Positions 36,762 to 52,057 of a stretch of DNA of 64,000 bases are shown here, one piece after another. Numbering within the stretch: position 1 is the stretch's first letter; every line of letters begins with the position of its first letter. Source of the stretch: a virus. Location: the IMG/VR virus record IMGVR_UViG_3300031963_008876, positions 62,001 to 126,000 of that record; one strand, given 5' to 3'. The notes below the pieces were generated by a model, which was given only the letters and a program-made list of their open reading frames with translations, was not told the DNA's origin and made no database searches. Position numbers and translations under genes: made by a program.

Positions 36762-37090
36762 TGACACCTGAAGAATTTTTTGGCGCATTGGAACACATGC
36801 CTATGCCTATGCCTGTAACTTATCGACTGTATCACGATGACCAAGGTTGTCCTTTATTTTACAGCATGGAAGGTCTGCCTGGTACATACATAGAAATTGA
36901 TCAAGAAACATTTGCCAAAAATTCCACTCGTGTGCGTGTTCGAGATGGAAAAATTGTAGAAACAACTTGGAAAACCACACAAAAACTTGTACCACAAAAT
37001 TCAGGCACAATGTGTCATCCTGATGATGTAACTATTGTGGTAAAAGAACACGGCACATATTGGAGCAAACAAACTTATGAAACAGATTGA
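36761..37090 (+). CDS. Small unknown protein between glycosyltransferases
   Basis: 109 residues from the ATG in the TGATG junction with the upstream gene (a longer start 26 codons earlier would lie inside that gene and is less likely). It contains EFFGALEHMPMPMPVTYRLY, FYSMEGLPGTYIEIDQETFA and a charged C-terminus ending SKQTYETD. Predicted mixed alpha/beta, cytoplasmic, no known motif. It overlaps the next gene by 14 nt. Function unknown; by context it belongs to the glycosylation block. Confidence 0.6.
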   Translation: MTPEEFFGALEHMPMPMPVTYRLYHDDQGCPLFYSMEGLPGTYIEIDQETFAKNSTRVRVRDGKIVETTWKTTQKLVPQNSGTMCHPDDVTIVVKEHGTYWSKQTYETD

Positions 37091-38000
37091 CGTTGCAGAC
37101 TTAGATTGCATATACTTGAGCTATGACGAACCACAACGAGAAGAATTTTGGGTCAAGATTAGGAATATGGTTCCTTGGGCACAACGGGTGGATGGCGTTA
37201 AAGGGAGCGATGCAGCTCACAAAGCGGCAGCCTCAGCGTCTAGTACGGATAGATTCATTCTCATCGATGGCGACAATCTCCCCGACCCGGCGTTTTTTAA
37301 TCAGACACTTGTTTTTCCTAATGAAGAATATGAGAGTGCTGTGTTCCGGTGGCGGGCACGTAACCATATCAACGGACTGATGTATGGCAATGGTGGCCTG
37401 AGCTCTTGGACCAAAGACTTTGTGGGCAACATGCGTACACACGAAGCCACAGATGGTCGCGCAGAAACTGAAGTGGAGTTTTGCTTTGATCCATTGTACT
37501 GGCCCATGCATGACTGCTACTCCAATACCTATCCCAATGGATCACCATTCCATGCCTGGCGTGCAGGGTTCCGTGAAGGTGTCAAGATGTGCCTGCAACG
37601 TGGGCGCCGACCCACAGTGGAAGAATTTAAAAATCAGGTGCTACGTAATCTTGACAACTTGACTATCTGGCACAACATTGGCACAGACGTTGATCATGGA
37701 GAATGGGCCATTGCTGGCAGCCGCCAAGGCACATACATGACCATGCTCACAAACTGGGATTACAAGCAGGTGCAAGATTTTGCTGCACTAGAGGCGCTGT
37801 GGAATACTGTGAAAGATTCAAACCCTCGCATACTCAGCAATCAACTGGGCCCAGAACTGGGCACACAATTGGATCTTCCAATGGGTATATTGGAAGCAGA
37901 ACAATCAGCGTTCTTCAAATATCACTATCGGTCAGACTGGCGCAATCGTGGTGTTATGACACGCGAGATTGATGTAATTAGACAACAAGAAGGATGGTAA
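37077..38000 (+). CDS. GT-A-fold glycosyltransferase-like protein (homologous to the end of 58271-61870)
   Basis: 307 residues: DLDCIYLSYDEPQREEFWVK, then RVDGVKGSDAAHKAAASASS and TDRFILIDGDNLPD, i.e. D-G-D in the GT-A metal position (about residues 63-65). The second half has HINGLMYGNGGLSSWTKDFV and SPFHAWRAGFREGVKMC. The same blocks in the same order form the C-terminal domain of the ten-repeat protein (RVDGVNGRVAAYHAAA ... PLNGLVYGHQ ... SPWMAWRTAFREVIKLM), where the DGD is lost. This is therefore the probably active version. Sugar donor unknown. Confidence 0.62.
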   Translation: MKQIDVADLDCIYLSYDEPQREEFWVKIRNMVPWAQRVDGVKGSDAAHKAAASASSTDRFILIDGDNLPDPAFFNQTLVFPNEEYESAVFRWRARNHINGLMYGNGGLSSWTKDFVGNMRTHEATDGRAETEVEFCFDPLYWPMHDCYSNTYPNGSPFHAWRAGFREGVKMCLQRGRRPTVEEFKNQVLRNLDNLTIWHNIGTDVDHGEWAIAGSRQGTYMTMLTNWDYKQVQDFAALEALWNTVKDSNPRILSNQLGPELGTQLDLPMGILEAEQSAFFKYHYRSDWRNRGVMTREIDVIRQQEGW

Positions 38001-38001
38001 T

Positions 38002-38922
38002 ATGAAAAAATTAATCGCAACACTTTTGGCCGCACTGGCATTGCATGCTCAGGCAGAAGTAATCACAATCAAGTCTCCATATGGCGCACAGCATGCAGGG
38101 CATGCAGCATTGTATAAAATTATGGAAAAAGCCAATACTGCTCAAACTCAGTACGACTTTATACTAGAGTTAAAACCTGGTGCTAACGGAGTGTTAGCAC
38201 TAAAAGATCTGGATCGTGCGCCAGCTACATCGCTGGGATTAATTCATGCTGGCTATGTGCAGAATACCATGGACAATTTGCTAAACGAAACAGACTATGT
38301 TCCGGTTATGGCTCTTGGCGACGCCTGTTGGTTTGTTGCAAGCAACCAGGGTAATGAACAACAGGGTCTACGCAGTTTATATGGTAACCGTTTAGATCTG
38401 GTCATGGGCGGTGTTGGCATTGGAACAGCAGCACATTTGACTTCTATGGAGATTGCTGAAAAAATAAATCACCCCATTAGGTTTGTTAGTTTTAAATCAG
38501 GTGCAGAAGCAAATATTGTATTGGCTGGAGAAAACGGAGTACATGTCAGCATGATGTCAAGCAACGAATTTACAAATTTAAAAACACGGAACCCTCGCTT
38601 GCAAAGACTAGCTGTACATTGTGAACGCAGACTGCCCGAAGCTCCGGGAGTTGCTACCACAAAACAACAAGGCATCACAGCACCGTATGTCTTTAACACA
38701 ATTGTGGCCAATGTACACATGCCCGCAACCAAACTACAAGAAATCAAAGTTATATTAAACAATGCTGTGGTTGCAGTTGGTCAAGATCAAATACTGGCCA
38801 TGAGCGATTTTAATCCTCCTAATTTTAGAAATCAAAGTGTTGATGACTATCACAAAGAAAAAGTGCGTGTTATGAAAGCAGCATTGATCAAACACCGTGC
38901 GGCAATTGAGGCTGCAAAATGA
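38002..38922 (+). CDS. TctC/Bug-type periplasmic substrate-binding protein
   Basis: 306 residues with a clear Sec signal peptide, MKKLIATLLAALALHAQA, cleavage likely before EVITI. The mature part resembles tripartite tricarboxylate transporter receptors: IKSPYGAQHAGHAALYKIME, a central LVMGGVGIGTAAHLTSMEIA that matches the ligand-loop region, RFVSFKSGAEANIVLAGENG, and VHVSMMSSNEFTN. These proteins bind small carboxylates in the periplasm. No TctA/TctB membrane partner is present here, so it would feed a host transporter or act as a ligand scavenger or sensor. The family is greatly expanded in Betaproteobacteria and unexpected in a phage. It starts just after the preceding stop and overlaps the ANL gene by 4 nt. 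Confidence 0.7.
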   Translation: MKKLIATLLAALALHAQAEVITIKSPYGAQHAGHAALYKIMEKANTAQTQYDFILELKPGANGVLALKDLDRAPATSLGLIHAGYVQNTMDNLLNETDYVPVMALGDACWFVASNQGNEQQGLRSLYGNRLDLVMGGVGIGTAAHLTSMEIAEKINHPIRFVSFKSGAEANIVLAGENGVHVSMMSSNEFTNLKTRNPRLQRLAVHCERRLPEAPGVATTKQQGITAPYVFNTIVANVHMPATKLQEIKVILNNAVVAVGQDQILAMSDFNPPNFRNQSVDDYHKEKVRVMKAALIKHRAAIEAAK

Positions 38923-40004
38923 AACGAGTGGTACTGGCTGTCGCTGACCCTTGGAACTATTTTAATCAATGGCCAGGATACAGCTTGTCCATTATCAATC
39001 CAGACGGCGATGCCAACCGCAAACAATATCTCTTAGACAATTTAGACTGGAGTTTGTTGGTCACATCTGATGGCGTACAACATCGTGATGGTGGTGATTA
39101 CGGCGACGAGAAAATGGTAATGTACACTTCAGGCACAACCGGAGATTCAAAGTTTTTTAGTTATTCCACCACTCAGGTACAGCATGTTGTTGATAACATA
39201 ATTGCCAGCTACGAATTAACAGCCAATGATCGATTTTTGAGCGTTATGCCACTGTGGCATGGCCACGGACATATCCTAAACTATGTTGTTGCAACCGCTG
39301 GCATGCAAGTACACCATGTTCGACCGCCTGACTTGAAAAAACAAATAGAATTCAGCCCAACCTGGGTGTCTGCAATTCCTGACATACTTAGAGTAATGTC
39401 ACGCACTCAAAAATTCCCCGACTTGCGATTTGCTAGATCAGCCAGTGTTGCATTGCCCAACCAAGTGTTTGATGATTTAAAAAGATCATTTAATACCCCA
39501 ATCATTGAATCGTTTGGCATGTCTGAAGCCTGTAGCCATTGCTTTACCAATCCGTTGTATGGTGAACAACGTATAGGAACCATTGGACTTCCTGACGGGA
39601 TTGACGCAGACATACGCAACGGTAGCTTATGGCTGCGCGGCCCACAATGTCACACATCAGATTGGTTTGATACTGAAGACTTGGCTGAGCAAGACTCTGC
39701 AGGATACTACAAAATACTAGGACGTAGATCAGATCGACTGACCTTGCATGGCATCAAACTAAATCCATTGAGCATAGAAAATCAACTGTACAATCACATA
39801 CCACAACTGGATGAAGTTGTGGTGTTTGGCGAAAACAAAATGATGTGTGTGTACACCGGCAATGTTTTGCCCAATCAAGTGCGACAAGCATTAACTGATA
39901 TTTCCACACACTGTAACCCCAAGTTCCTTAAACAAGTTGAAAGCATACCTAAAAATACCGCAGGCAAAGTATCACGTTCACTGCTAAAGGAAATTTACAA
40001 TTGA
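38919..40004 (+). CDS. ANL-superfamily adenylate-forming enzyme (acyl-CoA synthetase-like), shortened
   Basis: Expected to activate a carboxylic acid as acyl-AMP. Motifs present: P-loop Y69-TSGTTGDSK78; FGMSEA 199-204; TED (242-244); hinge GRRSDR (258-263) followed by HGIKLNPLSIE; and the C-terminal catalytic lysine K350 in PKNTAGKVSR. At 361 residues it lacks most of the N-terminal subdomain of ordinary ANL enzymes (~500-550), beginning only 65 residues before the P-loop, yet the active-site set is complete. No carrier protein is seen nearby. It overlaps the binding-protein gene and the SGNH gene by 4 nt each, so acid capture, activation and transfer could be linked. The substrate is unknown. 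Confidence 0.82.
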   Translation: MKRVVLAVADPWNYFNQWPGYSLSIINPDGDANRKQYLLDNLDWSLLVTSDGVQHRDGGDYGDEKMVMYTSGTTGDSKFFSYSTTQVQHVVDNIIASYELTANDRFLSVMPLWHGHGHILNYVVATAGMQVHHVRPPDLKKQIEFSPTWVSAIPDILRVMSRTQKFPDLRFARSASVALPNQVFDDLKRSFNTPIIESFGMSEACSHCFTNPLYGEQRIGTIGLPDGIDADIRNGSLWLRGPQCHTSDWFDTEDLAEQDSAGYYKILGRRSDRLTLHGIKLNPLSIENQLYNHIPQLDEVVVFGENKMMCVYTGNVLPNQVRQALTDISTHCNPKFLKQVESIPKNTAGKVSRSLLKEIYN

Positions 40005-40711
40005 ATATCCTAGTGAACGGACCCAGTGTGTCACGAGGCCCTGGCAGTTGGCCGTACTTGTTGCAAGAGCACTACAACGCCGACCTTGTTAATTTGAGTC
40101 AGGCAGGGGCTGGAAATACTTACATTCATGAAACTACCGTGGCTGAACTTGCACAACGATCTTATGATCTAGTGGCAATCATGTGGGGAGATCAACAACG
40201 ACTAGATATCAAAGTAAAAAACATTGATTATTTTCATGATACTATCTACACCAGCAAATTCCAAAAGGCCATGAATGATTGGCCAGAGAAGATAGTAGAG
40301 CCTGTTAACGACCAAGACTATGTGCAAGACAACTGGGTGTTTGGTTGCGGATACATCAATACCAAAGATCCTTGTTTGGTAGAACTGTTTGATTCGTATT
40401 ACCAGCATACTGACATTGACTCTCGATACTTTAGCAGTATTATCAAAATGATCAGTCTCCAGGGCGTACTTAAAAATCTTGGAATAAAATATGTATTTTG
40501 CGGCACCCGCACATTGCCTTTGTTAAAACGCTACGAACATTTGTACAATCTATTAGATTGGAATTGTATAATCAATGATTTTACTCCCCATCACGTGGCC
40601 TACCGGGACAATTGCTGGGAAGCTGATCAACTACACCCTGGCCCGGCCGCACACCAAGAATTTGCCAAACACATGATTGCTCAACTTCAACAAAGACATA
40701 TACTTACATAA
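40001..40711 (+). CDS. SGNH/GDSL-hydrolase-like protein (acyl esterase or acyltransferase)
   Basis: 236 residues. Likely nucleophile serine S9 in NGPSVSRGPGSW, a block II glycine in LSQAGAGNTY, and a C-terminal D-x-x-H-P (DQLHPGPAAHQEFA) that supplies the catalytic Asp/His. The TTG start at 40001 gives a 4-nt overlap with the ANL gene; an ATG alternative is not available nearby. SGNH enzymes commonly add or remove acyl groups on sugars, which fits between an acyl-activating enzyme and glycosyltransferase-like genes. Two other SGNH-like genes lie at 51410 and 53516. Confidence 0.65.
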   Translation: MNILVNGPSVSRGPGSWPYLLQEHYNADLVNLSQAGAGNTYIHETTVAELAQRSYDLVAIMWGDQQRLDIKVKNIDYFHDTIYTSKFQKAMNDWPEKIVEPVNDQDYVQDNWVFGCGYINTKDPCLVELFDSYYQHTDIDSRYFSSIIKMISLQGVLKNLGIKYVFCGTRTLPLLKRYEHLYNLLDWNCIINDFTPHHVAYRDNCWEADQLHPGPAAHQEFAKHMIAQLQQRHILT

Positions 40712-41697
40712 TGATTAATATTCCGCACATTGATCTTAAGATTTGGAATCCTGAATTCAAAACAATTGAAATTGTGTCAGAGTTACAACAGCACGGCAAT
40801 GTGTCTATTGGCATTGACGGCGAAGGCAGTGATTGTGAAACGCTGGGCTTGTATAAACTATTGGATGCAGTATGCAGTAACTTAGGTTACACACCCGGCG
40901 CCATAAGCATACACACTTGCAATCAATTAGAACACCATTCTTGCTATAAAATTATTAAACATCCGCCGTTGTACATACCCAGCGGGCAACAGTTTGCATC
41001 TCAGCACACGCTACCTGAGAAACGCTGGGACGCAATCAAGCACTTTGGAATTTTTGTTGGACGTAGCAGTTGGCAACGATTGTGGATGGCCAGTCACACA
41101 TGGAGCAACTACGGCGACATAACCTCCATGACTTATCATTACGATAGTAGCGTCGATTATCATCGCACACACTTGAGCTTTGATGAACTAGCATATCAAA
41201 TAGGATTGCCTAATGCAGTTAACACAGCAGGCAAGTTCATGCAACAATTGCCCATCAAGAACGAATCTGTTGATAGCTATCCTATACTAACTCCAGCACA
41301 CTTTGCTATTGCTAAACTGTATCCTGATTTTTTTGTGGAAATAGTATGCGAAACTTTTCTAAGCGGCAACAGCTTTTACCCCACGGAAAAAACCTGGAGA
41401 CCGTTTATATGTCGTACACCGTTTTTGACTCTGGGCCCACGTGGCTTTTTGGCAAACTTACACAAGCTGGGATTTAGAACATTCTCTCAGTGGTGGGACG
41501 AAAGCTACGACCAAGATGCTGACCTAGACAATGGGCGAATAGCCATCAAGTGTATACAACAAACACAACAACGCTTGAGCATACTCAGCACACAGGAGCT
41601 TGAAGGCATGTACATTGACATGAAAGATACTTTAGAACATAACTATCAACACTTCATGCAGTTAAAAGAAACGGACTTTGTAAAAATATGGCCATGA
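40711..41697 (+). CDS. TEK-family glycosyltransferase-like protein 1
   Basis: 328 residues. The diagnostic C-terminal block is FYPTEKTWRPFICRTPFL, followed by GPRGFLANLHKLGFRTFSQW and WDESYDQ (about 222-272). The same T/S-EK-x-(W/F/L)-(R/K)-(P/A) ... P-F ... G-(F/Y)-x-(T/V)-F ... (E/N)-S-Y-D pattern is present in four other genes of this window. It recalls the conserved C-terminal region of GT10/fucosyltransferase-like enzymes, where a Glu/Lys pair contacts the nucleotide sugar, but that assignment is by resemblance only. The N-terminal part is unlike the other four. Overlaps: 1 nt before, ~4 nt after (with a radical SAM gene). Confidence 0.6.
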   Translation: MINIPHIDLKIWNPEFKTIEIVSELQQHGNVSIGIDGEGSDCETLGLYKLLDAVCSNLGYTPGAISIHTCNQLEHHSCYKIIKHPPLYIPSGQQFASQHTLPEKRWDAIKHFGIFVGRSSWQRLWMASHTWSNYGDITSMTYHYDSSVDYHRTHLSFDELAYQIGLPNAVNTAGKFMQQLPIKNESVDSYPILTPAHFAIAKLYPDFFVEIVCETFLSGNSFYPTEKTWRPFICRTPFLTLGPRGFLANLHKLGFRTFSQWWDESYDQDADLDNGRIAIKCIQQTQQRLSILSTQELEGMYIDMKDTLEHNYQHFMQLKETDFVKIWP

Positions 41698-43094
41698 ACA
41701 AAGGCGATGAAACAGTAGACAACAAGAGTCGGTTCCTAAACTCTGCTGAAAAAATGGCAGAGAACCTAGGCCCTGCGCTGTGCCTGGCCAAATGGAAGCA
41801 AGTGAGCCTGCACCTGCCCACAGGACTTAACAATAGTTGTTACCATCCGCCATTGCACAAGATACCCGTAGAAAACTTAGCTACCAATCCAGGATCCTTG
41901 CACAACACACCGCACAAGAAAGCGCAACGTGTGATGATGCTACGCAACGAAAAGCCCGCAGAGTGCGAGTACTGCTGGAACATGGAAGCGGAAAACAAAC
42001 TGAGTGACAGGCACTATCGTTCAGGCGAGCCTTGGGCCGCAGTGGACTTTGAAAAGATCCAGAACTCAACAGGAGAAGAAAGTGACGTTATCCCTAGCTA
42101 CGTTGAGGTTAATTTTAATAATGTTTGTAATCTCATGTGCAGTTATTGCAGTCCGCAATTCTCTAGCAGCTGGCAACAAGAAGTGGATCGATCAGGCGGC
42201 TACCCTACTGCTCGTGTTCACAATGATCCTGGGCATTTTGGTGGAGATCGCCGGGTTATACCAGTTAGAGAGCATAACCCTTATGTAGACGCATTCTGGG
42301 AGTGGTGGCCTACTTTGTACCCAGAACTGGTGCATTTCCGCATGACTGGGGGCGAACCCTTGTTAGACAAGAACACATACAGAGTGTTTGATCATGTGTT
42401 GGAGAACCCATCTGCCAAACTACATTTGAATGTAACATCAAACTTCTCAGTGGATGAAAAGTCATGGCAGAAGTACTTGGGGTATGTCAAGCAGTTGTGC
42501 GACGGGCGCATAGAACACTTCATGCAGTACGTGAGTTTAGACGGCTGGGGCTCACAAGCAGAATACATGCGTCACGGTATGGACTTCAATTTACTATGGG
42601 ACAGGGTAAATCAATTTCTAACAGAAGTACCCAGCTACAACAGTCTAACGTTTATTGTGACCATGAACAATCTATCAGTAACCAGCTTGGAAAACCTGTT
42701 TGCTGGCATTCTAGGTCTGCGTAAAACCTATAGCAAAACCTATCAACGTGTGTGGTTTGATACACCTGTACTACGCGAACCGGCTTGGCAGAGTTTGCAA
42801 ATACTGCCAGAAAGCTATGCTGAACGACTGGAATATCTCTGGGCGTGGATGATACGTTGGACAGAAACTGCCGAAGATCCATTCCACGGATTCAAAGACT
42901 ACGAACTTGCTAGACTGGACAGAGACATTGCATGGATGCGAGCAGGCCAAGGACAAGATCATTCCGCAGCAAAGGCAGACTTTTATAGATTCTTTCGAGA
43001 ACACGATCGCCGCAGAGGCACTGACTTTTTAAAGACCTTTCCAGAAATGAAAAGCTGGTGGGCAGAATGTGCATATCATGCTAGGAACACATAA
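41694..43094 (+). CDS. Radical SAM enzyme with N-terminal auxiliary cysteine cluster, 1
   Basis: About 466 residues. Radical SAM motif C-x3-C-x2-C in FNNVCNLMCSYCSP (C145, C149, C152 from this start), SAM-binding MTGGEPLLD downstream, and a partial TIM-barrel core. Before the core lie a cysteine in NSCYHPP and C-x2-C in ECEYCWN, placed as an auxiliary Fe-S ligand set like the SPASM/twitch domain but N-terminal. The start is chosen at the ATGA overlap (41694); an ATG two codons earlier is also possible. Closest in layout to the gene at 44168 (shared (C)xAKW, HPP, HNT/HKK and CEYCW elements). It follows one TEK-family gene and overlaps the start of another. Substrate unknown. Confidence 0.8.
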   Translation: MNKGDETVDNKSRFLNSAEKMAENLGPALCLAKWKQVSLHLPTGLNNSCYHPPLHKIPVENLATNPGSLHNTPHKKAQRVMMLRNEKPAECEYCWNMEAENKLSDRHYRSGEPWAAVDFEKIQNSTGEESDVIPSYVEVNFNNVCNLMCSYCSPQFSSSWQQEVDRSGGYPTARVHNDPGHFGGDRRVIPVREHNPYVDAFWEWWPTLYPELVHFRMTGGEPLLDKNTYRVFDHVLENPSAKLHLNVTSNFSVDEKSWQKYLGYVKQLCDGRIEHFMQYVSLDGWGSQAEYMRHGMDFNLLWDRVNQFLTEVPSYNSLTFIVTMNNLSVTSLENLFAGILGLRKTYSKTYQRVWFDTPVLREPAWQSLQILPESYAERLEYLWAWMIRWTETAEDPFHGFKDYELARLDRDIAWMRAGQGQDHSAAKADFYRFFREHDRRRGTDFLKTFPEMKSWWAECAYHARNT

Positions 43095-44181
43095 GCTCAT
43101 AGTAGACGAATGGGCCGAAGTCTGGGACTTGCTCAAGCCATATGCTGACAGCAGTTTTTGGCAGTTGCCCAGCTTGGATCCTGCCAATGTGTATGTTGTT
43201 GGCCGTGTGATATTGAAAGACAACTGGCAGACAATAACTGACTGGGCCACTCAGCACCCTGGACGCATTGTGTTCTCCAACCCTGCAGAAGGATCAGAAA
43301 CCATACTGCTACAGCTCAAGCGACTGCGCATTGCTGACTTGGTCCAAGACGGGCGCATAGGACTGTTGACGTCTGGGGATTTAGAACCAGGGTGGAGCTA
43401 TTGTAAAACAGACTGTTACTTTTCAAACATAGTGGAATACACAGAAAACAAATCGGCGCAACTACAAGCTGACATGGATTCAAAAGCGCATCGCCCATAT
43501 GATTTTCTTTTTTTAAATGGCCGCCTGCGCCCACATCGCAAAGCACTGATAGACGGCCTGCGTGAAAATCAGCTGTTGGATCATGCATTATGGACCAACC
43601 TGGGCAGTTCTGTTGAAATGGCATTTACTTCTGCACTGCAAACCAATCAGCTTGAGCCTATTAGACTGTTGCCCCCAGAATATGAAATTGAACGTGCTGT
43701 ACCCAACATGGAATCAGCGTATGCACACAGTTTTTGCAAGCATCATTTGTTTGGCAATACCTGGGGCGATGCCATTGTTAATCCTGCTTGCTACACAAGC
43801 ACATGGTTCTCAGTGGTAACAGAAACCATATTTGATTACCCGCACACATTTAGAACAGAAAAGATATGGAAGCCCATATTAATGGCACACCCATTTGTGG
43901 CAGCTGCCAACAGGGGTTACTTGCGAGACTTGCGCAACGCAGGATTCCGCACGTTCCACAACTACATCGACGAATCCTACGACCAAATTGATTGTCCAAG
44001 CAAGCGAATAGATAGTATAATAGCAACAATTGGCGAGATCTGTCAGAACGGTGCTGCTGAATTCTGGACAGCCGCCCAGGATATCTGTAAATATAATCAA
44101 CAGCACCTAGTGGAGCACAATCAATTGGAACGTGCCCAACTCCCCATCAATTTAGAAAAGTATTTAGATGAACGATCTTGA
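43078..44181 (+). CDS. TEK-family glycosyltransferase-like protein 2
   Basis: About 367 residues from the ATG (a GTG nine bases earlier is possible). C-terminal family block: VVTETIF ... FRTEKIWKPILMAHPFVAAA, then GYLRDLRNAGFRTFHNYIDE and SYDQ. The mid-region has FLFLNGRLRPHRKALIDGLR, an N-x-R/H-R-x-x-L-(I/V) element that recurs in other members as a Rossmann-type core. It sits between two closely related radical SAM genes, overlapping the first by 17 nt and the second by 14 nt, which suggests one functional set. Confidence 0.62.
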   Translation: MLGTHKLIVDEWAEVWDLLKPYADSSFWQLPSLDPANVYVVGRVILKDNWQTITDWATQHPGRIVFSNPAEGSETILLQLKRLRIADLVQDGRIGLLTSGDLEPGWSYCKTDCYFSNIVEYTENKSAQLQADMDSKAHRPYDFLFLNGRLRPHRKALIDGLRENQLLDHALWTNLGSSVEMAFTSALQTNQLEPIRLLPPEYEIERAVPNMESAYAHSFCKHHLFGNTWGDAIVNPACYTSTWFSVVTETIFDYPHTFRTEKIWKPILMAHPFVAAANRGYLRDLRNAGFRTFHNYIDESYDQIDCPSKRIDSIIATIGEICQNGAAEFWTAAQDICKYNQQHLVEHNQLERAQLPINLEKYLDERS

Positions 44182-45499
44182 GTTCCGTCAGCAAGTATTA
44201 GACCCTCTCTCAGCCAGCTTTTGTGCGGCAAAATGGTATAACGCAACCATTTGGTTAGGAAGTGGACAGACCACAAGTTGTCATCACCCGCCAGCTCATT
44301 TGATCGACAAAGATAAAGTCAGCATCAACCCTAGGCTACTGCACAATACTGATCAAAAGAAGGCAGATCGCCAACAAATGATCAACGGGGAGCGTCCCCC
44401 TGGCTGTGAGTACTGTTGGAAAATAGAAGACATGGGTCGCAATGCCATTTCAGACCGTGTGTATAAGAGTAAGATATATCCCATAGAGGCATTACATGAA
44501 GCTAGAAATACACCATACACTGAAGACGTCAACCTCCGTACACTTGAGATCGCTTTTGATCGCACTTGTCAGTTTGCTTGTAGCTATTGTAATCCAGCTT
44601 TCAGTTCAACATGGGTTAAAGACATCCGACGCAACGGAGCTTACCAGAACTTGGTCAGTGATGGTCGCAACCATTTTACCCATGATCATGCTAACGCACA
44701 ACTTTGGGATTATGGAGAACACAATCCTTACATTGATGCATTTTTTAAGTGGTGGGAGTCGGATCTGCATCGCACACTGCAAGAGCTCCGTATCACAGGA
44801 GGAGAGCCCCTCATGTCTGGTCACACATGGAAGCTCATTGACTGGTTTCGAACAAATTCAGGCAAGAGTTCAACACGCCTGGCTATCAACAGTAACCTAG
44901 GCACAGACGTAGACATTGACCGCTTGCTAGATGCAACGCAAAACATGGCAATTGACATATACACTTCAAACGAAGCTGTGGGTGTGCAAGCAGAGTACAT
45001 ACGCGACGGGTTGGTCTGGGCGGACTGGATGAACAATGTCAACCGCTTGTTAAGTTCCAAGCAGTTCCGTAGCATACATGTGATGTGTACCATCAATGCC
45101 CTGTGCCTAGACAGCTTGGATCAATTGCTAGAGTGCATAGTGAAATGGAAGCTGGAGTATGGGCGTGATGCTATATCATTCACACTAAACATCTTGCGTT
45201 TTCCCAGCTTTCAAAGTCCGTTGATACTGCCTGCGGAGTTGAAAACACACTACAAAACAGTGTTGGAAACTTGGCTCACAAATCACAGCCACAGTGAATA
45301 CCTGCACGAACACGAAATCAATCATTTACAAAGATTGATTGATTACCTGGATGTGGTGAAAACACCGCATTCAGACACATTTGAAATGCCCAAGCTATTG
45401 AATGATTTCAAACAATTCCACACACAGTATGACCAGCGTCGCAACAAAGACTTTGGCACAGCGTTCCCAAATCTGCAGGCCTGGTATAATTCACTATAA
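44168..45499 (+). CDS. Radical SAM enzyme with N-terminal auxiliary cysteine cluster, 2
   Basis: 443 residues. Motif C134-x3-C138-x2-C141 (DRTCQFACSYCNP), SAM-binding RITGGEPLMS, and N-terminal auxiliary cysteines C38 (SCHHPP) and C80-x2-C83 (GCEYCWK). A further cysteine, C19, in FCAAKW, matches CLAKW of the gene at 41694, so the two are paralogues. The C-terminal sequence DQRRNKDFGTAFPNLQAWYN parallels DRRRGTDFLKTFPEMKSWW in that paralogue. The reading ends at the first of four TATAAT boxes. Substrate unknown; likely a peptide or glycan precursor given the neighbours. Confidence 0.8.
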   Translation: MNDLEFRQQVLDPLSASFCAAKWYNATIWLGSGQTTSCHHPPAHLIDKDKVSINPRLLHNTDQKKADRQQMINGERPPGCEYCWKIEDMGRNAISDRVYKSKIYPIEALHEARNTPYTEDVNLRTLEIAFDRTCQFACSYCNPAFSSTWVKDIRRNGAYQNLVSDGRNHFTHDHANAQLWDYGEHNPYIDAFFKWWESDLHRTLQELRITGGEPLMSGHTWKLIDWFRTNSGKSSTRLAINSNLGTDVDIDRLLDATQNMAIDIYTSNEAVGVQAEYIRDGLVWADWMNNVNRLLSSKQFRSIHVMCTINALCLDSLDQLLECIVKWKLEYGRDAISFTLNILRFPSFQSPLILPAELKTHYKTVLETWLTNHSHSEYLHEHEINHLQRLIDYLDVVKTPHSDTFEMPKLLNDFKQFHTQYDQRRNKDFGTAFPNLQAWYNSL

Positions 45500-45520
45500 T
45501 TCACTATAATGTCATATAAT
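45485..45520 (+). repeat. Four TATAAT hexamers at exact 10-bp spacing
   Basis: TATAAT occurs at 45485, 45495, 45505 and 45515. The first three are part of a perfect 10-bp tandem repeat (TATAATTCAC). The array spans the stop of one radical SAM gene (45497-45499) and the start of the next (45509). The hexamer equals the sigma70 -10 consensus, but I see no TTGACA-like box at 16-18 bp from any of the four. It may be a weak internal promoter, a slippage product that lengthened the junction, or both. Confidence 0.8.
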
Positions 45521-46768
45521 TACAACTCTACAGATCTAGTAAGACCCACAGAATTAACTGAGCGTGAGGAATTCTTACTAAAAGATTCAAAGACATTTTG
45601 CATTTATCCCTGGATCCATTTGCACGCCTATCCCACAGGCGAGGCATATCCCTGCTGTCATGCTGAAATGAAGCCAGGCATAGTAGGCAACTGTAGAACA
45701 AATACCTTAGAAGAAATATGGCAGGATGCACCCATGCAGAAGCTACGTGCAGACATGCTGAGCGAAACGCCACACGCTGCCTGCACACGTTGTTATGAGC
45801 AGGAAGAATCAGGATTCTTTTCAGGCCGTAAGAGTGCCAACAAACATCACGGACATCACATAAAGAAGCTGGATCAAAATCCTTTTGAAATGACCTACTG
45901 GGACATTCGTTTCTCAAACTTGTGCAATCTAAAATGCCGTAGCTGCGGATACATATTCAGCTCACAATGGTATCAGGATCAAGCCAAACTTGCTGGCGGC
46001 GACTGGAAAGCCCGCAACACAGTGCTAAACTATGCAGGGCGTACTGAAACTGACATGTGGGAACAATTAAAGCCTCATTTGGACTATGTGGAACAGATCT
46101 ACTTTGCTGGCGGTGAACCCTTGCTTATGGCGGAACACTACAATATTCTAGACGAGCTGGTGCGAAGAAAACGCTTTGACGTTAGACTCATATACAACAC
46201 CAACTTCACACACACGGATCTCAAGGGTCGTTCAGTATTTGAATACTGGCGCCAGTTCGATTCAGTTGCTGTGGGTGCCAGCCTGGATGCGTCGGGCGCA
46301 CGTGGGGAATACATTAGAAAAGGCACAGACTGGGCCGTAGTAGAACAGAACAGACGTGATATGTTGCGTGTGTGCCCTGAAGTGGATTTTTACATTTCAC
46401 CTACCTTGAGCATAATGAATGCCTGGCACCTGCCTGATTTCCACCGTGACTGGGTGGAAAAAGGCCTGATCCGCGCACAGGATTTAAATATAAATATCCT
46501 ACAAGATCCTGCGCACTATAGAATAGACATTGCCACAGCCGAATACAAACACTCACTCACAGCACTGTATCAAAATCATATCCATTGGCTTAAAGGTCAG
46601 GACCCGCTAAATCGTGCCACACAAGGCTTTGAATCAGCCATTACCTTTATGATGGCCACAGACAACACACACTTGATAGATACATTCTGGCGCAAAACAA
46701 ATGAACTAGATTCAATAAGAAATGAATCAATATTGGATATAATTCCAGAATTGGCGGCACTAAAATGA
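45509..46768 (+). CDS. Radical SAM enzyme with N-terminal auxiliary cysteine cluster, 3
   Basis: 419 residues of a second sub-type. The N-terminal cluster is C31 (CIYPWIHLHAYPTGEAYPCC), C49-C50 and C92-x2-C95, the order W-(I/V)-H-L ... G-x-x-x-P-C-C ... L-x-E-I-W ... C-x2-C being the SPASM-type half-cluster moved to the front. The core motif is C139-x3-C143-x2-C146 (FSNLCNLKCRSCG), with FAGGEPLL for SAM and SLDAS later. These 'twitch'-type proteins occur in phage and bacterial clusters, mostly without assigned reactions. It overlaps the next gene by 4 nt. Confidence 0.8.
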   Translation: MSYNYNSTDLVRPTELTEREEFLLKDSKTFCIYPWIHLHAYPTGEAYPCCHAEMKPGIVGNCRTNTLEEIWQDAPMQKLRADMLSETPHAACTRCYEQEESGFFSGRKSANKHHGHHIKKLDQNPFEMTYWDIRFSNLCNLKCRSCGYIFSSQWYQDQAKLAGGDWKARNTVLNYAGRTETDMWEQLKPHLDYVEQIYFAGGEPLLMAEHYNILDELVRRKRFDVRLIYNTNFTHTDLKGRSVFEYWRQFDSVAVGASLDASGARGEYIRKGTDWAVVEQNRRDMLRVCPEVDFYISPTLSIMNAWHLPDFHRDWVEKGLIRAQDLNINILQDPAHYRIDIATAEYKHSLTALYQNHIHWLKGQDPLNRATQGFESAITFMMATDNTHLIDTFWRKTNELDSIRNESILDIIPELAALK

Positions 46769-47982
46769 ATATTCCACACGATCAATTTTGCGTATTGCCC
46801 TGGGTGAGTTTAGAAGCCTCTCCCATTGGCACTGTACGCCCATGTTGTCTGGCAGATGATGAACTGACGGATGACTCTGGCACAAAGTTCTCGCTATTGA
46901 ATGCTAACTTTGCTGACATACAAAACTCACGTGCAATGACACGCCTGCGTGAACAGTTTCTTGCAGGCGAAAAGCCACAGACCTGCCGCAAGTGCTGGAT
47001 GGAAGAACGTGCTGGCCGCACATCAAAACGCATGCACACCTTGGACAGAATGAAACACATGGGCATATCAGGAGAATGGACCACTGACGCCAAGCCGCTG
47101 ATGTTCCTGGATTTGAAGCTGGGCAACATCTGCAATTTAAAATGTCGTATATGCGGATCATGGTCATCAAGCCAATTTGCCACAGAAGAATTAAATGACA
47201 TGCATCCAGATGACGATAAGAAAAAGACATTTCCCTATCAGATGCTGCGAGCAGGTGCGTGGCCCAGGGAAAATCAATCATTTTGGACAGAAATTGATGC
47301 CTGTTTAAATGACATACGCTACATTGAATTTACAGGTGGCGAGCCATTCATGATTGATCAGCACTTTGACATGTTGCAGGGCATTGTGGATCGCGGAATT
47401 GCACATCAAGTGGAAATACACTACAACACAAATGGCACACAATGGCCTGCTCGCGGCCCGGACATCTGGCGCCATTTTAAAACAGTAGAAGTGGCGTTCT
47501 CAATAGATGATGTGGGTGAACGCTTTGAATATCAACGCACCAATGCAGACTGGGCATTGGTGCTGGACACAATCACAAGTTTTCAATATCTTAGAGATCA
47601 ACTGCCCAACCTGCGTTTACAATGCTGTAGTACCGTGAATGTGTTTAATGTGCGGTACATTGATCAACTAGCACACTGGATAGCACTGCAACGCTTTGAC
47701 TTTGTGTACTGGAACATGATGCATGATGCCTGGTACTTTTCAATTGCCACACTGCCTGACACAGCCAAAGCTGCTGTCACAGAACACCTACGTTCAGCAG
47801 ATGTGCCCGCACAATATCGTGAGGAGTTTGATAGAATCACAGACTTTATGAATGGGGGTGCGTCAACGGACGGCTTTATGTTGCGAATGAAAGTACGTGA
47901 TTTAGATCGCAAAAGAAAACAAAATTTACGTGATGTAGCGCCAGAATTTGCTGAAATAATTGGGTATGACTATGACCAGTAA
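46765..47982 (+). CDS. Radical SAM enzyme with N-terminal auxiliary cysteine cluster, 4
   Basis: 405 residues, same sub-type as the preceding gene. N-terminal C9 (FCVLPWVSLEASPIGTVRPC), C27-C28, C74-x2-C77 (TCRKCW); radical SAM motif C123-x3-C127-x2-C130 (GNICNLKCRICGSWSSSQ); FTGGEPFMI for SAM binding; SIDDVGERFEYQR, aligning with SLDASGARGEYIR of its neighbour, is likely part of the substrate site. The ATGA start ties it to gene 3, and its 3' end overlaps a TEK-family gene. Tandem duplication with divergence is the likely origin of genes 3, 4 and 5. Confidence 0.8.
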   Translation: MNIPHDQFCVLPWVSLEASPIGTVRPCCLADDELTDDSGTKFSLLNANFADIQNSRAMTRLREQFLAGEKPQTCRKCWMEERAGRTSKRMHTLDRMKHMGISGEWTTDAKPLMFLDLKLGNICNLKCRICGSWSSSQFATEELNDMHPDDDKKKTFPYQMLRAGAWPRENQSFWTEIDACLNDIRYIEFTGGEPFMIDQHFDMLQGIVDRGIAHQVEIHYNTNGTQWPARGPDIWRHFKTVEVAFSIDDVGERFEYQRTNADWALVLDTITSFQYLRDQLPNLRLQCCSTVNVFNVRYIDQLAHWIALQRFDFVYWNMMHDAWYFSIATLPDTAKAAVTEHLRSADVPAQYREEFDRITDFMNGGASTDGFMLRMKVRDLDRKRKQNLRDVAPEFAEIIGYDYDQ

Positions 47983-48979
47983 TCTGGTATTGATGCACGA
48001 CACCAGACTGGTTCCTGCCAATTTGTCAAGGCATTTTCCTGTGGACTATGAGTTTTTTGATCCTGGCAAAACATATCCCAGCAACACAGTTTTTGTTTAT
48101 GATCATTATCTCAGTGAAATTGCAGTCAAACAGCATCTTGACAGTCATCTGCAAGCTGGCTACAGAGTAATATACGACAACAAAAATGAACATTGGTTTA
48201 CCACTGACCAATGGTGGATTGTTGAGCTGCTACAAAAATATCCACAACAACACCTTTTGTTTAGTTTGGGATCACAGCCTGGCGCATTGCCTGGACTCAG
48301 AGTGCAGGCTGTGCCTGCTTGGATATGGCTGCGTTGCCGAGACTATTGGGAAAAATTGAACTATCACAATATTGCATATACTCCAACTGCACGGTATAAA
48401 ACATTGTGTATGATCAACTACACACGACCCTGGCGAGACCTGGTGTGGCAAGCATTGAATCCCATGGAGGCAGATGTGATGCGTAGTTATTTGTCCCAGG
48501 GGATCAGCATGCCCGACGATGTTACAGGTGATGGACACTTGTGGCAGGTAAATCCACGTTGGTTTCATATTTCTGCAATGAGCTTGGTGTGCGAAAGTTC
48601 AATTGGTGCTGTTTCTGGAGAAATTTCAGTCACTGCACCGTCAGGTGTGTTTGTGAGCGAAAAAAGTCTAAAGCCCATGGCCATGCAACATCCATTTATT
48701 GTGGTAGCAACCCCGGGTACCCTAGCAGAGATACAGAGTTTTGGATTTGAAACATTCCCAGAGTTATGGGACGAAAGCTACGATTCAATTGTGGACTTTG
48801 GTCAGCGATTAAACGTCATTATGCAACAAGTGCAACAGTTTGATACAGCACAATTAAACCAGCTGGTAGTGCAACAAAAACTCCAACACAATCAGCACAG
48901 GATTTTTGATCCTGCGGTAACACAGCAATTGCTACAGCAACAGGTGTTGGATCCCATATTAGAATTTTTAAATGAATAA
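47972..48979 (+). CDS. TEK-family glycosyltransferase-like protein 3
   Basis: About 335 residues from the ATG at 47972 (an ATG two codons earlier and a TTG further up are alternatives). Family block: GVFVSEKSLKPMAMQHPFIV, then GTLAEIQSFGFETFPELWDE and SYDSIVDFGQRL. The S-EK-x-L-K-P form differs slightly from the others. The mid element KTLCMINYTRPWRDLVWQAL corresponds to the N-x-R-x-x-R-x-x-L block of protein 2. It lies between radical SAM genes 4 and 5, overlapping 4 by 11 nt and 5 by 8 nt. Confidence 0.6.
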   Translation: MTSNLVLMHDTRLVPANLSRHFPVDYEFFDPGKTYPSNTVFVYDHYLSEIAVKQHLDSHLQAGYRVIYDNKNEHWFTTDQWWIVELLQKYPQQHLLFSLGSQPGALPGLRVQAVPAWIWLRCRDYWEKLNYHNIAYTPTARYKTLCMINYTRPWRDLVWQALNPMEADVMRSYLSQGISMPDDVTGDGHLWQVNPRWFHISAMSLVCESSIGAVSGEISVTAPSGVFVSEKSLKPMAMQHPFIVVATPGTLAEIQSFGFETFPELWDESYDSIVDFGQRLNVIMQQVQQFDTAQLNQLVVQQKLQHNQHRIFDPAVTQQLLQQQVLDPILEFLNE

Positions 48980-50261
48980 ACCTGATACCATGTGCCTGGC
49001 ACCTTGGGTGCATACCTATCTAAGCCCGCAAACTGAACGGCGCATGTGCTGTGCGTCACGCGAGCCTGCACAGAATTTTCGGCAGTACATAGACACTGAG
49101 TCAGGTACTGGTCAGTATATTCCTGTCACACTTGAAGAACATTGGAATTCAAATCACATGCGATCAGTGCGTCGCAGAATGATGGCCGGAGAAACTTTAC
49201 CTGAATGCGAAGTATGCAATGACCGACTCCTTAACACTAGCGTTTACCGCACCTACTTCGATCATTTATTTCAGCACAAACTGCCAGAAGTATACGCTAA
49301 CACACAGCCCGATGGCACTACGACTATGGAACCTGTTTCATGGGATTATAGGTTCTCAAACTTATGTAACTTCAAATGCAGAACCTGCGGAGATATGCTT
49401 TCAAGTGCCTGGGAGAGTGAACAAAAACAGAACAACATGGTCAACTGGGCTGATCCTAAAAACAATTGGATGCGAGACAGTATACGTGACAGCATCTCCC
49501 AATTTCAGGATAGTCAAATTGAAGCCGAATTTGCTGCCGCCGTTGAACAACATCGTGTAGAAGAAATCTACTGGGTGGGCGGAGAGCCGCTAATGTACGA
49601 ACAGCATTGGCGCCACATGAAAAGAATTGTTGAACTAGGAGATGGACCACGTGTTTATGCTAGATATAATACTAATCTCAGCCGTGTGCGTTACGGCGGT
49701 GTGGATCTATTTGATGATATCCTGGCGCACATTCGCGATTGGCAAATATGTGCTTCCCTGGATGGAACTGAGCAGATCGGGGAATATATTCGTACAGGAT
49801 TGGATTATGCACAGTTCTGTCGTAATTTTGAACACGGACTCAAATACGCTACCAACCCTAGACAGATGCGTCTTGACTTTACCCTCACACTGCCCGGCAT
49901 GTTCGAGACTGGCGCAATGGAAAAGTTATCACAGACGTATGGGGTACAATTGTTAGCCAAAGTGATATTCAGCTTTAGTCCAGACATTGTTATGAGTCCA
50001 CTTGCGCTGCCCAGACACTTGTTGGATCCATGGGTTGACGAACTAGCAGGCCGCTCCGCAGGTGACATGCGTGATGTACTGCTACAATTAAAGAACCGTC
50101 CATGCTTTGAGGAACAATGGCCGGATACATATCGCGCAGGACTTGCAAAAGGCAAAGCTCGTGTGTTACAATTAGAAAGCATACGCACACAGAAGATTAC
50201 TATGGCAGAAATACTTGCTCAAAGACCAGCAGTGCTAGAATGGTGGAATAAAATTGCTTGA
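48972..50261 (+). CDS. Radical SAM enzyme with N-terminal auxiliary cysteine cluster, 5
   Basis: 429 residues. N-terminal cluster C8 (CLAPWVHTYLSPQTERRMCC), C26-C27, C79-x2-C82 (ECEVCN). Radical SAM motif C132-x3-C136-x2-C139 (FSNLCNFKCRTCGDMLSS), WVGGEPLMY, then CASLDGTEQIGEYIR, the same substrate-side block as genes 3 and 4. The C-terminus is helical and ends in LAQRPAVLEWWNKIA. It overlaps TEK protein 3 by 8 nt and the next unknown gene by 8 nt. The fifth of five such enzymes in 8.6 kb. Confidence 0.8.
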   Translation: MNKPDTMCLAPWVHTYLSPQTERRMCCASREPAQNFRQYIDTESGTGQYIPVTLEEHWNSNHMRSVRRRMMAGETLPECEVCNDRLLNTSVYRTYFDHLFQHKLPEVYANTQPDGTTTMEPVSWDYRFSNLCNFKCRTCGDMLSSAWESEQKQNNMVNWADPKNNWMRDSIRDSISQFQDSQIEAEFAAAVEQHRVEEIYWVGGEPLMYEQHWRHMKRIVELGDGPRVYARYNTNLSRVRYGGVDLFDDILAHIRDWQICASLDGTEQIGEYIRTGLDYAQFCRNFEHGLKYATNPRQMRLDFTLTLPGMFETGAMEKLSQTYGVQLLAKVIFSFSPDIVMSPLALPRHLLDPWVDELAGRSAGDMRDVLLQLKNRPCFEEQWPDTYRAGLAKGKARVLQLESIRTQKITMAEILAQRPAVLEWWNKIA

Positions 50262-51315
50262 TCACATTGAAATAGACCTACGCGGACAAAACAGCCTACT
50301 AACTGTGCATATAGATGTGGCGGACAACACACTAAGTCGCAAATGGCTAACCGCGCTAAATGACATCATTAGAACTGATCTTCATTTGGAAAAGAATTAC
50401 TGTTGGATGGGATGGACTGAAAGTGAACGAAATGCACAATACCTTTGTGAGCAAATTAATGCTAGTATTGATCACATCAATCGAAGTGGTATTGGCTATT
50501 GTATTGATTGTGATGCTTATACTGTAGAGAATACCATTGAGCCAGGAATCATTGGCACCAATCTAATCATCGGTGGCGTGGTGCATGAAAAAATGAACAA
50601 TCTACACAGGTATTTTGAAGACCTACAAGGGTGGTCAGGTGGCATTTCAAATTATTATACTCGTGCAGATCCTGCTACACGCTGGCACATACGTCAACTA
50701 AATCTCCTGTGTCATGAATATGAAAGTCTTGTATTGAGCATGCGCAAGGCTGTGCATGCCCCTGAATGGCGCAGACCCTCACAGTTGATGTGTTGGCTTA
50801 ATGCACCGCGTTTTGCACTAGAACCCGCGGACTATGAATTGTTTGGCGTAGAAACCATCAACAGAACTCTAGGCGGTGTTTATTTGGGTGTAAATAAAGC
50901 AGTTGGCAAACATCACTGGGAGGTGTTCAATGATGAAGGTAGGGATTCGCGTGTTGGCGAGCTTGTTACTACAGGACTGCGTGCTCAAACTGAAGCCGCT
51001 GGCGACTTTGATATCGAATGGGCCCGTGACCCAGGAGCATATCACTGGCAAATCAAAAAGTTACAAGAATTCCGCGCCTGGCTATTGGACAATGGGTTTG
51101 ATCCAGAGGACAAAAGTCTCACCATTGGTCACCCAAAGGTGGCACAAGTTGACGTGATGCGAACATTTGGAACAACGGATTATGAAAAGATTTGGGCGCA
51201 GTTGGCTCAACATCTTGATGTGTTGAGCATACGTACCGGGTGGGGCGAAGCTACATACAACTATCGCTGGAGCGATCCAGACTATCATGAACAGCAAATA
51301 AGGAGATTGAAATGA
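50254..51315 (+). CDS. Unknown 353-residue protein downstream of the radical SAM array
   Basis: Starts at a TTG (50254) that overlaps the radical SAM stop; no nearby ATG is in frame. Soluble and acidic, with many Trp and Tyr: YCWMGWTESERNAQYLCEQI, GGVVHEKMNNLHRYFEDLQGW, CWLNAPRFALEPADYELFG, GVYLGVNKAVGKHHWEVFND, and a C-terminal SIRTGWGEATYNYRWSDPDY. No catalytic motif, signal peptide or transmembrane segment is recognisable. Its position directly after radical SAM gene 5 makes it a candidate partner or substrate of the array. Function unknown. Confidence 0.65.
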   Translation: MLDHIEIDLRGQNSLLTVHIDVADNTLSRKWLTALNDIIRTDLHLEKNYCWMGWTESERNAQYLCEQINASIDHINRSGIGYCIDCDAYTVENTIEPGIIGTNLIIGGVVHEKMNNLHRYFEDLQGWSGGISNYYTRADPATRWHIRQLNLLCHEYESLVLSMRKAVHAPEWRRPSQLMCWLNAPRFALEPADYELFGVETINRTLGGVYLGVNKAVGKHHWEVFNDEGRDSRVGELVTTGLRAQTEAAGDFDIEWARDPGAYHWQIKKLQEFRAWLLDNGFDPEDKSLTIGHPKVAQVDVMRTFGTTDYEKIWAQLAQHLDVLSIRTGWGEATYNYRWSDPDYHEQQIRRLK

Positions 51316-51413
51316 ATTGGATTAGACAAATTTGGGATAGAATTACACTAGAGTATCGTTATCGTAAAAAACTAAAAGAGCTACGCAAAAGAGATCCTTT
51401 TATCTACAAATGA
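51312..51413 (+). CDS. 33-residue basic protein, coupled on both sides
   Basis: ATG at 51312 overlaps the previous stop (ATGA) and the TGA at 51411-51413 overlaps the next ATG in the same way, so the frame fits exactly between two genes. The peptide begins MNWIRQIWDRITLEYRYRKK and ends KELRKRDPFIYK, an amphipathic helix with a strong positive charge. GGAG lies 8 nt before the ATG. A tiny peptide of this kind could be a membrane-surface or RNA-binding factor; function is unknown. The double coupling is the main reason to believe it is real. Confidence 0.65.
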   Translation: MNWIRQIWDRITLEYRYRKKLKELRKRDPFIYK

Positions 51414-52057
51414 AAAATCAGTTACTCACAATAGGTGATAGCTTTACACATGGTGACGAATTGTCAGATGTGTATCAAGCCTGGCCCTATCGTCTGTCAG
51501 ACAAACTAGGATACGAAGTCCACAATCTTGGACAGTCAGGGTGCAGTAACGCTAGTATTTTGCGTAGAACATTAGAAGAACTTGCGACCAATCATTATGA
51601 TTTAGTTATTATAGGGTGGACTTATCCGGGTAGAATTGAATGGAAAGATGACATTGGCATAGCGTATGATTTATGGCCAGGTGTGCCCAACGATACTAAA
51701 TTTTTTAAAGATCATCCTTGGAGAGTTGATTTTTTAAACTTTATAAGTCAACATCACAATTCTGCTTATCTATACCAACAGTATCTGATACAAACAATTT
51801 TGTTGCAATCGTTTTGCCAAGTCAACAGCATTGATTATAGAATGTTAGATGTACAATGGCACAATTACTACAGAAAAGTTGGATCAGAAATGCATGATAA
51901 GTTAGAAGCAAAAATAGATACAACAAAATTTATAGGTTGGCAAAAGTTTGGTATGAGAGAACTAGTGGCTGATTTACCAAAAGGTCCTCAAAATCATCCG
52001 CTAGAACAAGGACATGAGAGAATAGCAAATGAAATCGCAAAACATATTGGGAATTAG
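51410..52057 (+). CDS. SGNH/GDSL-hydrolase-like protein 2
   Basis: 215 residues. Block I is IGDSFTHGDE with likely nucleophile S11, block II NLGQSGCSNASI, and the C-terminal QNHPLEQGHERIANEI supplies the histidine in the usual place, although the Asp of D-x-x-H is replaced by Asn (N-H-P). Base composition is more AT-rich than upstream genes, by eye. It overlaps the carbamoyltransferase by 29 nt, longer than most junctions here. A role in acyl group addition or removal on a glycan is inferred from family and context. Confidence 0.65.
   Translation: MKNQLLTIGDSFTHGDELSDVYQAWPYRLSDKLGYEVHNLGQSGCSNASILRRTLEELATNHYDLVIIGWTYPGRIEWKDDIGIAYDLWPGVPNDTKFFKDHPWRVDFLNFISQHHNSAYLYQQYLIQTILLQSFCQVNSIDYRMLDVQWHNYYRKVGSEMHDKLEAKIDTTKFIGWQKFGMRELVADLPKGPQNHPLEQGHERIANEIAKHIGN

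Follow-up and report, generated by a model that had tools for sequence, protein, structure and literature searches.

A Conserved Radical SAM Scaffold with Variable Slots for Glycosyltransferase-Like Genes in Large Tailed Phages

Introduction

Several groups of tailed phages have been described as carriers of multiple radical S-adenosylmethionine (SAM) genes. The host recognition clusters of pelagimyophages combine radical SAM cassettes, glycosyltransferases, and tail fibers in a variable island within the structural region, between VrlC and gp14, and the available part of that report states that the freshwater members are without radical SAM proteins (PMC7029224). As far as the available text of its description goes, the Aeromonas giant phage 332-Vera has eight radical SAM genes within its structural gene cluster (PMC12390700), and the Campylobacter phages IBB_35 and CP220, which are distantly T4-like, are credited in the accessible part of a third report with several such genes (PMC3322345). 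The locus analyzed here is an array of five radical SAM genes, R1–R5, and three genes of the TEK family, T1–T3, on a 64,000-nucleotide stretch of viral DNA. This stretch, referred to as the window, covers bases 62001–126000 of the 149,596-base virus record IMGVR_UViG_3300031963_008876 from IMG/VR. The radical SAM genes of the array are constant between related phages, and TEK and other genes lie in variable slots, mainly between R1 and R2 and between R4 and R5.

The window resembles the pelagimyophage cluster in having a variable island of radical SAM and glycosyltransferase-type genes, and its island follows tail-type genes; it differs in that the available part of the pelagimyophage report describes no conserved scaffold of five radical SAM genes and gives GT8 as the main glycosyltransferase family (PMC7029224). 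Phage 332-Vera differs in being of a phiKZ-type family, and the term "glycosyl" appears nowhere in the main text of its description, as available (PMC12390700). The radical SAM proteins of CP220 match the N-twitch family (N_Twi_rSAM, NF033640), in which R1–R5 fall, at no more than 31 bits and over the core only. Because these matches are weak and limited to the core, the CP220 proteins do not qualify as N-twitch proteins, and a common origin with the Campylobacter phage radical SAM genes, judged from CP220, was rejected.

Array Organization and Conservation

The array of five radical SAM genes and three TEK genes is real. Its eight open reading frames (ORFs), all on the plus strand, run from 40711 to 50261 in the order T1 (40711–41697), R1 (41688–43094), T2 (43069–44181), R2 (44168–45499), R3 (45509–46768), R4 (46765–47982), T3 (47960–48979), and R5 (48972–50261), as had been read in the original prediction. 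The successive junctions measure -10, -26, -14, +9, -4, -23, and -8 nucleotides; the claim that almost all genes are joined by overlaps of 4–26 nucleotides therefore stands, with six of seven junctions overlapping.

The IMG/VR scans are represented by the best 80 of 129 loci for R4, 80 of 308 for R1, and 44 distinct loci from 45 confirmed for R5; the TEK set consists of 80 of 535 confirmed loci. This selection makes the R4 loci a set of close relatives; 49 of them, one being the window's own phage, are non-redundant at less than 90% R4 identity. Gene labels in the loci represent the best BLAST hit to window genes. The order R1–R2–R3–R4–R5 is kept in all 43 non-redundant loci that hold the five genes (the window phage among them), which is more than chance would give. 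The cassette recurs in other phages, where the original prediction had proposed looking for the same alternating order. R1 is present in 44 of the 49 loci, R2 in 46, R3 in 47, and R5 in 48; R4, as the query behind the locus set, is present in all 49 by selection. Between loci, R1–R5 share 72–74% identity (mean pairwise values of 73.1% for R1, 72.4% for R2, 73.5% for R4, and 73.8% for R5), and T2, T4, and T5 share 50–61%, with T2 (mean 49.9%) having an orthologue in 34 loci. The median ratio of nonsynonymous to synonymous substitution rates (dN/dS) is 0.05–0.14 across the 11 genes tested, with 8–25 pairs each.

The slot that holds T2, between R1 and R2, is filled in 39 of 44 loci and contains 40 TEK genes in all. 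The R4/R5 slot, occupied by T3 in the window and by TEK genes in relatives, is filled in 26 of 48 loci (24 TEK genes), and the variable slot before R1, which holds T1 and is bounded on the left by the conserved gene w370, in 27 of 39 (11 TEK genes). Inserts between R3 and R4, found in 15 of 48 loci, include nine radical SAM genes and no TEK gene. Insertions are present between R2 and R3 in 6 of 46 loci, between the conserved gene w502 and the carbamoyltransferase gene in 6 of 41, and between R5 and w502 in none of 44. The inserted genes form 39 clusters, of which 37 representatives were scanned by Pfam, two reverse ORFs having been dropped; beyond TEK, the slot families include epimerase, DegT, UDP-sugar dehydrogenase, GHMP kinase, methyltransferase, and APS kinase. 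Given the fixed order and the higher identity of R1–R5, the radical SAM genes constitute the scaffold and the TEK genes largely the exchangeable part. The notion of a strict alternation or pairing of the two gene types has to be given up for this picture of constant radical SAM genes and largely variable TEK genes.

Radical SAM Proteins

All five radical SAM proteins pass the 170-bit cut-off of NF033640 over almost the full profile, with 315 bits for R1, 297 for R2, 387 for R3, 329 for R4, and 281 for R5. Of 234 orthologues, 231 carry the motif C-x3-C-x2-C, and every one has GGEP. In an alignment of 99 rows, chosen at 370–500 amino acids from the five paralogous groups, seven cysteines (C31, C49, C92, and C95 in R3 numbering, plus three in the core) and GGEP are invariant throughout. 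The original prediction had assigned to every radical SAM protein the core motif together with further N-terminal cysteine sets; these are conserved, but the doubled CC that it included is present in R3–R5 and not in R1 or R2. A Pfam SPASM-type N-terminal domain exceeds its cut-off in R3 (PF13186, 7e-12) and in R4. Because the N-terminal and core cysteines are invariant, one N-terminal auxiliary [4Fe-4S] cluster is predicted in each of R1–R5 in addition to the SAM-binding cluster.

In an unrooted tree, each of R1–R5 forms one clade of eight rows; the Vibrio rows and several rows from outside the island are long branches whose placing is unsure. Folds were modeled for one radical SAM protein, R3, and one TEK protein, T4. 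The R3 model has a predicted local distance difference test score (pLDDT) of 88, and its closest solved folds over the core are BlsE, SuiB, a sactipeptide maturase, anSME, viperin, SkfB, and DesII, with Z of 13.0–13.8 in VIA, a second look at the Foldseek hits in which the absence of a family from the list is no evidence against that family. PDB entry 5why is presumably of the CteB type.

TEK Proteins

Judging from one modeled member, TEK proteins appear to be glycosyltransferases of the GT-B class, in agreement with the glycosyltransferase-like character first assigned to them. The model of TEK protein T4 (pLDDT 91; predicted template modeling score, pTM, 0.90) has a GT-B fold over its whole length, with matches spanning residues 1–398. 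In VIA, the Z scores are 11.6 for phage T4 BGT, 10.8 for alpha-1,3-fucosyltransferase, 10.6 for phage T4 AGT, 9.7 for Poglut1, and 9.3 for exostosin, and all 50 PDB rows are glycosyltransferases (Z 8.8–11.6). Among the Foldseek PDB rows listed, glycosyltransferases and phosphorylases of the GT-B class were found. In a viral structure library, 22 matches to the model reach E 0.001, one from Mimivirus and 21 from uncultured Caudovirales; the only named protein among them, of 788 amino acids, is annotated as UDP-glucose/GDP-mannose dehydrogenase.

At the level of sequence, Pfam and NCBIfam assign the TEK proteins to no family above cut-off, and PHROG places none in a glycosyltransferase family, its sole match being a weak one of T2 (E 0.005) to a function-unknown family. 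A sequence-profile search against PDB chains gave no match at E up to 10, and a single search of TEK protein T4 against a phage collection found nothing. The TEK alignment took in 101 of 106 listed rows. An E-K pair is invariant in alignment A1, of which T1 is a member, TEK is nearly invariant in alignment A4, and no sequence search shows GT10 homology. GT10 fucosyltransferases presumably have a conserved TEK-type donor motif, a likeness seen by eye. Two further TEK genes had been reported at 55902–58272, on the minus strand, and alignment shows them to be relatives of the array TEKs. They are T5 (55902–57092; 30 of 49 loci, 54.0% identity) and T4 (57076–58272; 26 of 49 loci), some loci ending before each gene.

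Neighboring Genes

Directly after R5 follows w502 (50254–51315, plus strand), which has no Pfam family, is 64% identical between loci, and is matched once per record in the 11 large related records described below. No PDB sequence relative of w502 was found below E 1, and the protein is a good structure target. The SGNH/GDSL-like protein (51410–52057, plus strand) matches PF19547 (DUF6071, 9e-11) and, below the cut-off, PF13472 (Lipase_GDSL_2, 4e-7). The carbamoyltransferase (52029–53519, plus strand; PF02543 3e-38, PF16861 1e-48) is a conserved member of the island, present in 41 of 49 loci at 69% identity. The highest conservation between loci, 86% (85.8%), belongs to the gene at 54890–55930 (minus strand; 28 of 49 loci). 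Downstream of the island lie a DegT-type sugar aminotransferase (61842–62957, minus strand; PF01041 5e-53) and an NAD-dependent sugar epimerase/dehydratase (62869–63864, minus strand; PF01370 3e-46). On the upstream side, w370 (37077–38000, plus strand; 38 of 49 loci, 76.4% identity) forms the conserved left border. It has no Pfam match over cut-off and would be glycosyltransferase-like only by a DGD motif read by eye. An AMP-binding (ANL) enzyme (38919–40004, plus strand; PF00501 4e-23) is cargo of a variable slot, its label occurring in 8 of 80 loci.

The sugar setting that the original prediction had proposed is thus borne out by sugar-nucleotide enzymes around the island, and Pfam recovers the carbamoyltransferase, ANL, aminotransferase, and epimerase genes. 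Two of its assignments were not recovered, as the putative SGNH gene at 40001–40711 matches no family and the putative amidinotransferase at 54890–55930 has no Pfam match and falls in PHROG 25854, of unknown function.

Among the tail-type genes upstream of the island, gp25 exceeds its Pfam cut-off, and baseplate-V and gp53 lie just or somewhat below theirs; these matches would fit a contractile T4-like tail. A Thr/Ser/Ala/Gly-rich protein (33914–34864, plus strand) is fiber-like in its composition and was found in 14 of 49 loci, where the 10-kb flank often stops short; it has no Pfam or PHROG match. After the baseplate-type genes, a protein of 4900 amino acids (16627–31329, plus strand) has threonine as its commonest residue (9.5%). 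The 1199-amino-acid protein at 58271–61870 (plus strand), which has no Pfam match over cut-off, contains by eye about ten aromatic-rich repeats of the DPPYIYVFGNQW type, and its C-terminal stretch resembles, also by eye, the 37077–38000 gene. A TctC-type solute receptor (38002–38922, plus strand; PF03401), hydrophobic at its start, is odd cargo for a phage; such receptors are common in Burkholderiales, which is perhaps a hint to the host. At the left edge of the window, a radical SAM ORF of another type, with the motif CVRSCAFC (2–1063, minus strand), is cut by the window's end, and the claim of such a separate gene is correct.

Occurrence in Large Genomes and Outside Viruses

Eleven large related records of 286–364 kb, possibly incomplete, were analyzed, two of which (G002, G013) carry proteins 100% identical to those of the window. 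By hand count, 7–17 N_Twi_rSAM genes per record exceed the cut-off, 114 in total, and TEK matches number 5–14 per record. DegT matches are present in all 11. One radical SAM gene outside the island (in L345) is accompanied by a TEK gene, an epimerase gene, and two other small genes. A family recognized by eye from DWMPTDTKE adjoins radical SAM genes in two large phages (L345:6081–6866, minus strand; L347:6861–7658, plus strand), and its copy in L345 has no Pfam hit.

A contig scan outside viruses returned two loci, both from one Elusimicrobia metagenome-assembled genome. This genome (G001; L293, L294, L296–L315, L329, L330) has 48 NF033640 matches over cut-off by hand count, many in tandem ORFs. 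In six of its long ORFs that were scanned, TPR repeats are fused to the radical SAM domain, N-terminally in five and C-terminally in one. Eight Elusimicrobia rows group with the phage R3 clade in the unrooted tree.

Proposed Function and Alternative Explanations

The island is tentatively interpreted, with a chance of being right that is put a little below even, as a soluble pathway for glycan assembly in the cytoplasm, encoded by large tailed phages of freshwater, in which radical SAM enzymes would tailor sugars or acceptors and whose product would probably decorate virion proteins. The sugar aminotransferase, epimerase, carbamoyltransferase, GT-B proteins, and slot genes make for a setting that fits glycan assembly. 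The DegT and epimerase enzymes, joined in some relatives by UDP-sugar dehydrogenase and GHMP kinase, would supply modified sugars, and the GT-B TEK enzymes would transfer them. Either the sugar or the acceptor may undergo radical tailoring by the five N-twitch proteins (oxidation, epimerization, decarboxylation, or C-C/C-S chemistry), and finishing groups could be added by the carbamoyltransferase and SGNH-type genes. The radical SAM steps would represent the invariant core; the exchange of TEK and other slot genes from one phage to another would change the final glycan. Among 15 proteins (T1–T5, R1–R5, and five conserved neighbors), no 19-residue hydropathy peak exceeds 1.42, and PF02397 and PF01943 occur in none of the 11 large records, other flippase and initiating-transferase families not having been searched. 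This lack of strongly hydrophobic segments and of the two families suggests that the acceptor is soluble, the simplest candidate being a virion protein from the upstream tail genes. The likeliest acceptor would be a virion surface protein encoded in that tail region, possibly the fiber-like protein at 33914–34864, and a variable coat would affect host binding or recognition.

Several observations weigh against this interpretation. We infer the glycan product, the chemistry of each radical SAM protein, the virion acceptor, and the biological purpose; what the analysis itself establishes is gene content, conservation, variable slots, one modeled fold for each of the two protein types, and the lack of strongly hydrophobic segments in the 15 proteins. 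The Foldseek PDB matches of TEK protein T4 all have E above 0.001. The R3 fold match covers the core and not the N-terminal domain, and its nearest folds are peptide, nucleotide, and sugar enzymes alike, so that they do not decide among sugar, peptide, and nucleotide substrates. Outside the island, in a survey that covered the regions between L336 and L338 in part, radical SAM genes stand singly or in pairs among core genes as read by eye, presumably including terminase and RecA-like genes; consequently, a link to glycans is not established for every radical SAM copy. In non-scaffold loci (39 non-redundant of 60 with TEK), 5 of 66 TEK genes adjoin a radical SAM gene, against a shuffled mean of 3.08 (p 0.17). 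With adjacency outside the lineage at the shuffled level, strict pairing as a general rule was rejected. The original prediction had named two grounds on which it should fail, independent occurrence of the two gene types in relatives and loss of the cysteine motifs; the shuffled-level adjacency bears out the former in part, and the motifs are conserved.

A flippase and an initiating transferase could be supplied by the host, which counts against a virion acceptor and would allow a host-surface target. The same enzymes would then alter the O-antigen, capsule, or lipopolysaccharide core during infection and exclude rival phages, with the glycan built on host lipid carriers. Glycosyltransferase clusters are so read in the available parts of reports on pelagimyophages (PMC7029224) and jumbo cyanophages (PMC7824862), and the presence of sugar-nucleotide enzymes agrees with it. 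The lack of PF02397 and PF01943 in the 11 large records and of strongly hydrophobic segments in the 15 proteins speaks against such a role, subject to the same host machinery filling the gap, and it is considered rather unlikely. A peptide substrate is less probable still. In that case the radical SAM proteins would be maturases, giving a product like a ribosomally synthesized and post-translationally modified peptide (RiPP) or cross-links in structural proteins, and the glycosyltransferases would act on that peptide or protein. SuiB, the sactipeptide maturase, SkfB, and anSME are among the closest R3 folds, and R3 and R4 both have a SPASM-type domain at the N-terminus, but Pfam lists no peptide-recognition domain and the array, with six overlapping junctions and a seventh of 9 nucleotides, leaves no room for a precursor, which could be encoded elsewhere or replaced by a large virion substrate. 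A RiPP cluster within the array was disfavored for this lack of precursor space, short ORFs elsewhere not having been searched.

That TEK protein T4 matches phage T4 BGT best in VIA, with AGT close behind, would suit a cassette that hypermodifies phage DNA or nucleotides, with TEK enzymes acting like the T4 DNA glucosyltransferases and radical SAM proteins building the base modification. However, fucosyltransferase and protein O-glucosyltransferase score no more than 2 Z below BGT, tail-type genes precede the island, and PF00303, the thymidylate-synthase-type family of the hydroxymethylases, is found in none of the 11 large scaffold records, although routes free of PF00303 are possible; a twelfth, TEK-only and non-scaffold record has it. 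With no PF00303 supply of hydroxymethylated pyrimidines in these possibly incomplete records, DNA glucosylation is disfavored, and DNA modification as a whole is judged improbable. The lowest probability is given to lineage-specific accessory genes with no shared pathway, in which radical SAM, TEK, SGNH, and methyltransferase genes would have multiplied and clustered by chance in a permissive region. The many N_Twi_rSAM genes per record, numerous outside the island, and the chance-level adjacency outside the lineage are what such an origin would leave, but it sits poorly with the fixed order in 43 of 43 loci, the single clade of each R protein, the low dN/dS, and the unbroken R5/w502 junction in 44 of 44.

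Within the preferred interpretation of a virion-decorating glycan pathway, a narrower and more doubtful proposal is that virion proteins receive a common, chemically unusual core from the five fixed radical enzymes and a cap from the exchangeable GT-B enzymes, which would give phages of one lineage different coats. Such a modular device for diversifying coats would, if real, be of a kind not found described for any virus. The combination of a constant set of radical enzymes with interchangeable transferases suggests that freshwater phages could vary their coats in a modular way. The locus offers a repeatable genomic handle on the function of N-twitch radical SAM proteins and on why glycosyltransferases are so numerous in many large phages. 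Part of the chemistry is testable in QD01, a phage cultured on Vibrio natriegens Vmax that has three radical SAM genes, related by tblastn, with glycosyltransferase candidates as neighbors.

Comparison with Known Systems

No description of a five-gene radical SAM cassette with exchangeable GT-B slots was found in the open-licence literature searched. The name of the N_Twi_rSAM family does not point to a function; the island has five fixed paralogues of it, which make up one phage cassette. Related radical SAM genes also lie near glycosyltransferase-type genes in the Vibrio phages K566/K567 and in KVP40-like phages. In K566, the order is radical SAM 0303, GT8 0304, radical SAM 0305 and 0306, and GT4-like 0307, the last a weak match below the Pfam cut-off, followed on the opposite strand by radical SAM 0308 and GT8 0309. 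The NF033640 cut-off is passed by two of the five K566 radical SAM proteins, 0303 and 0306; 0305 and 0308 fall short of it, as do the three weaker relatives in KVP40, and the fifth K566 gene lies further on. The depositors' PF00534 annotation of the KVP40 neighbor 0274 is not reproduced by a Pfam scan at E 0.001. The K566 and KVP40 proteins share 21–25% identity with the window radical SAM proteins, and no match to TEK or w502 was found in either phage. TEK protein T4 itself relates to known GT-B enzymes (phage T4 BGT and AGT, alpha-1,3-fucosyltransferase, Poglut1) by a full-length fold match at 3–9% sequence identity.

Earlier radical SAM clusters, as far as the available parts of the two reports describe them (PMC7029224, PMC12390700), mean that this kind of system is partly known. 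Against this partial prior art, the conserved scaffold of five radical SAM genes with exchangeable GT-B slots, which did not turn up in the searches made, would be the new part.

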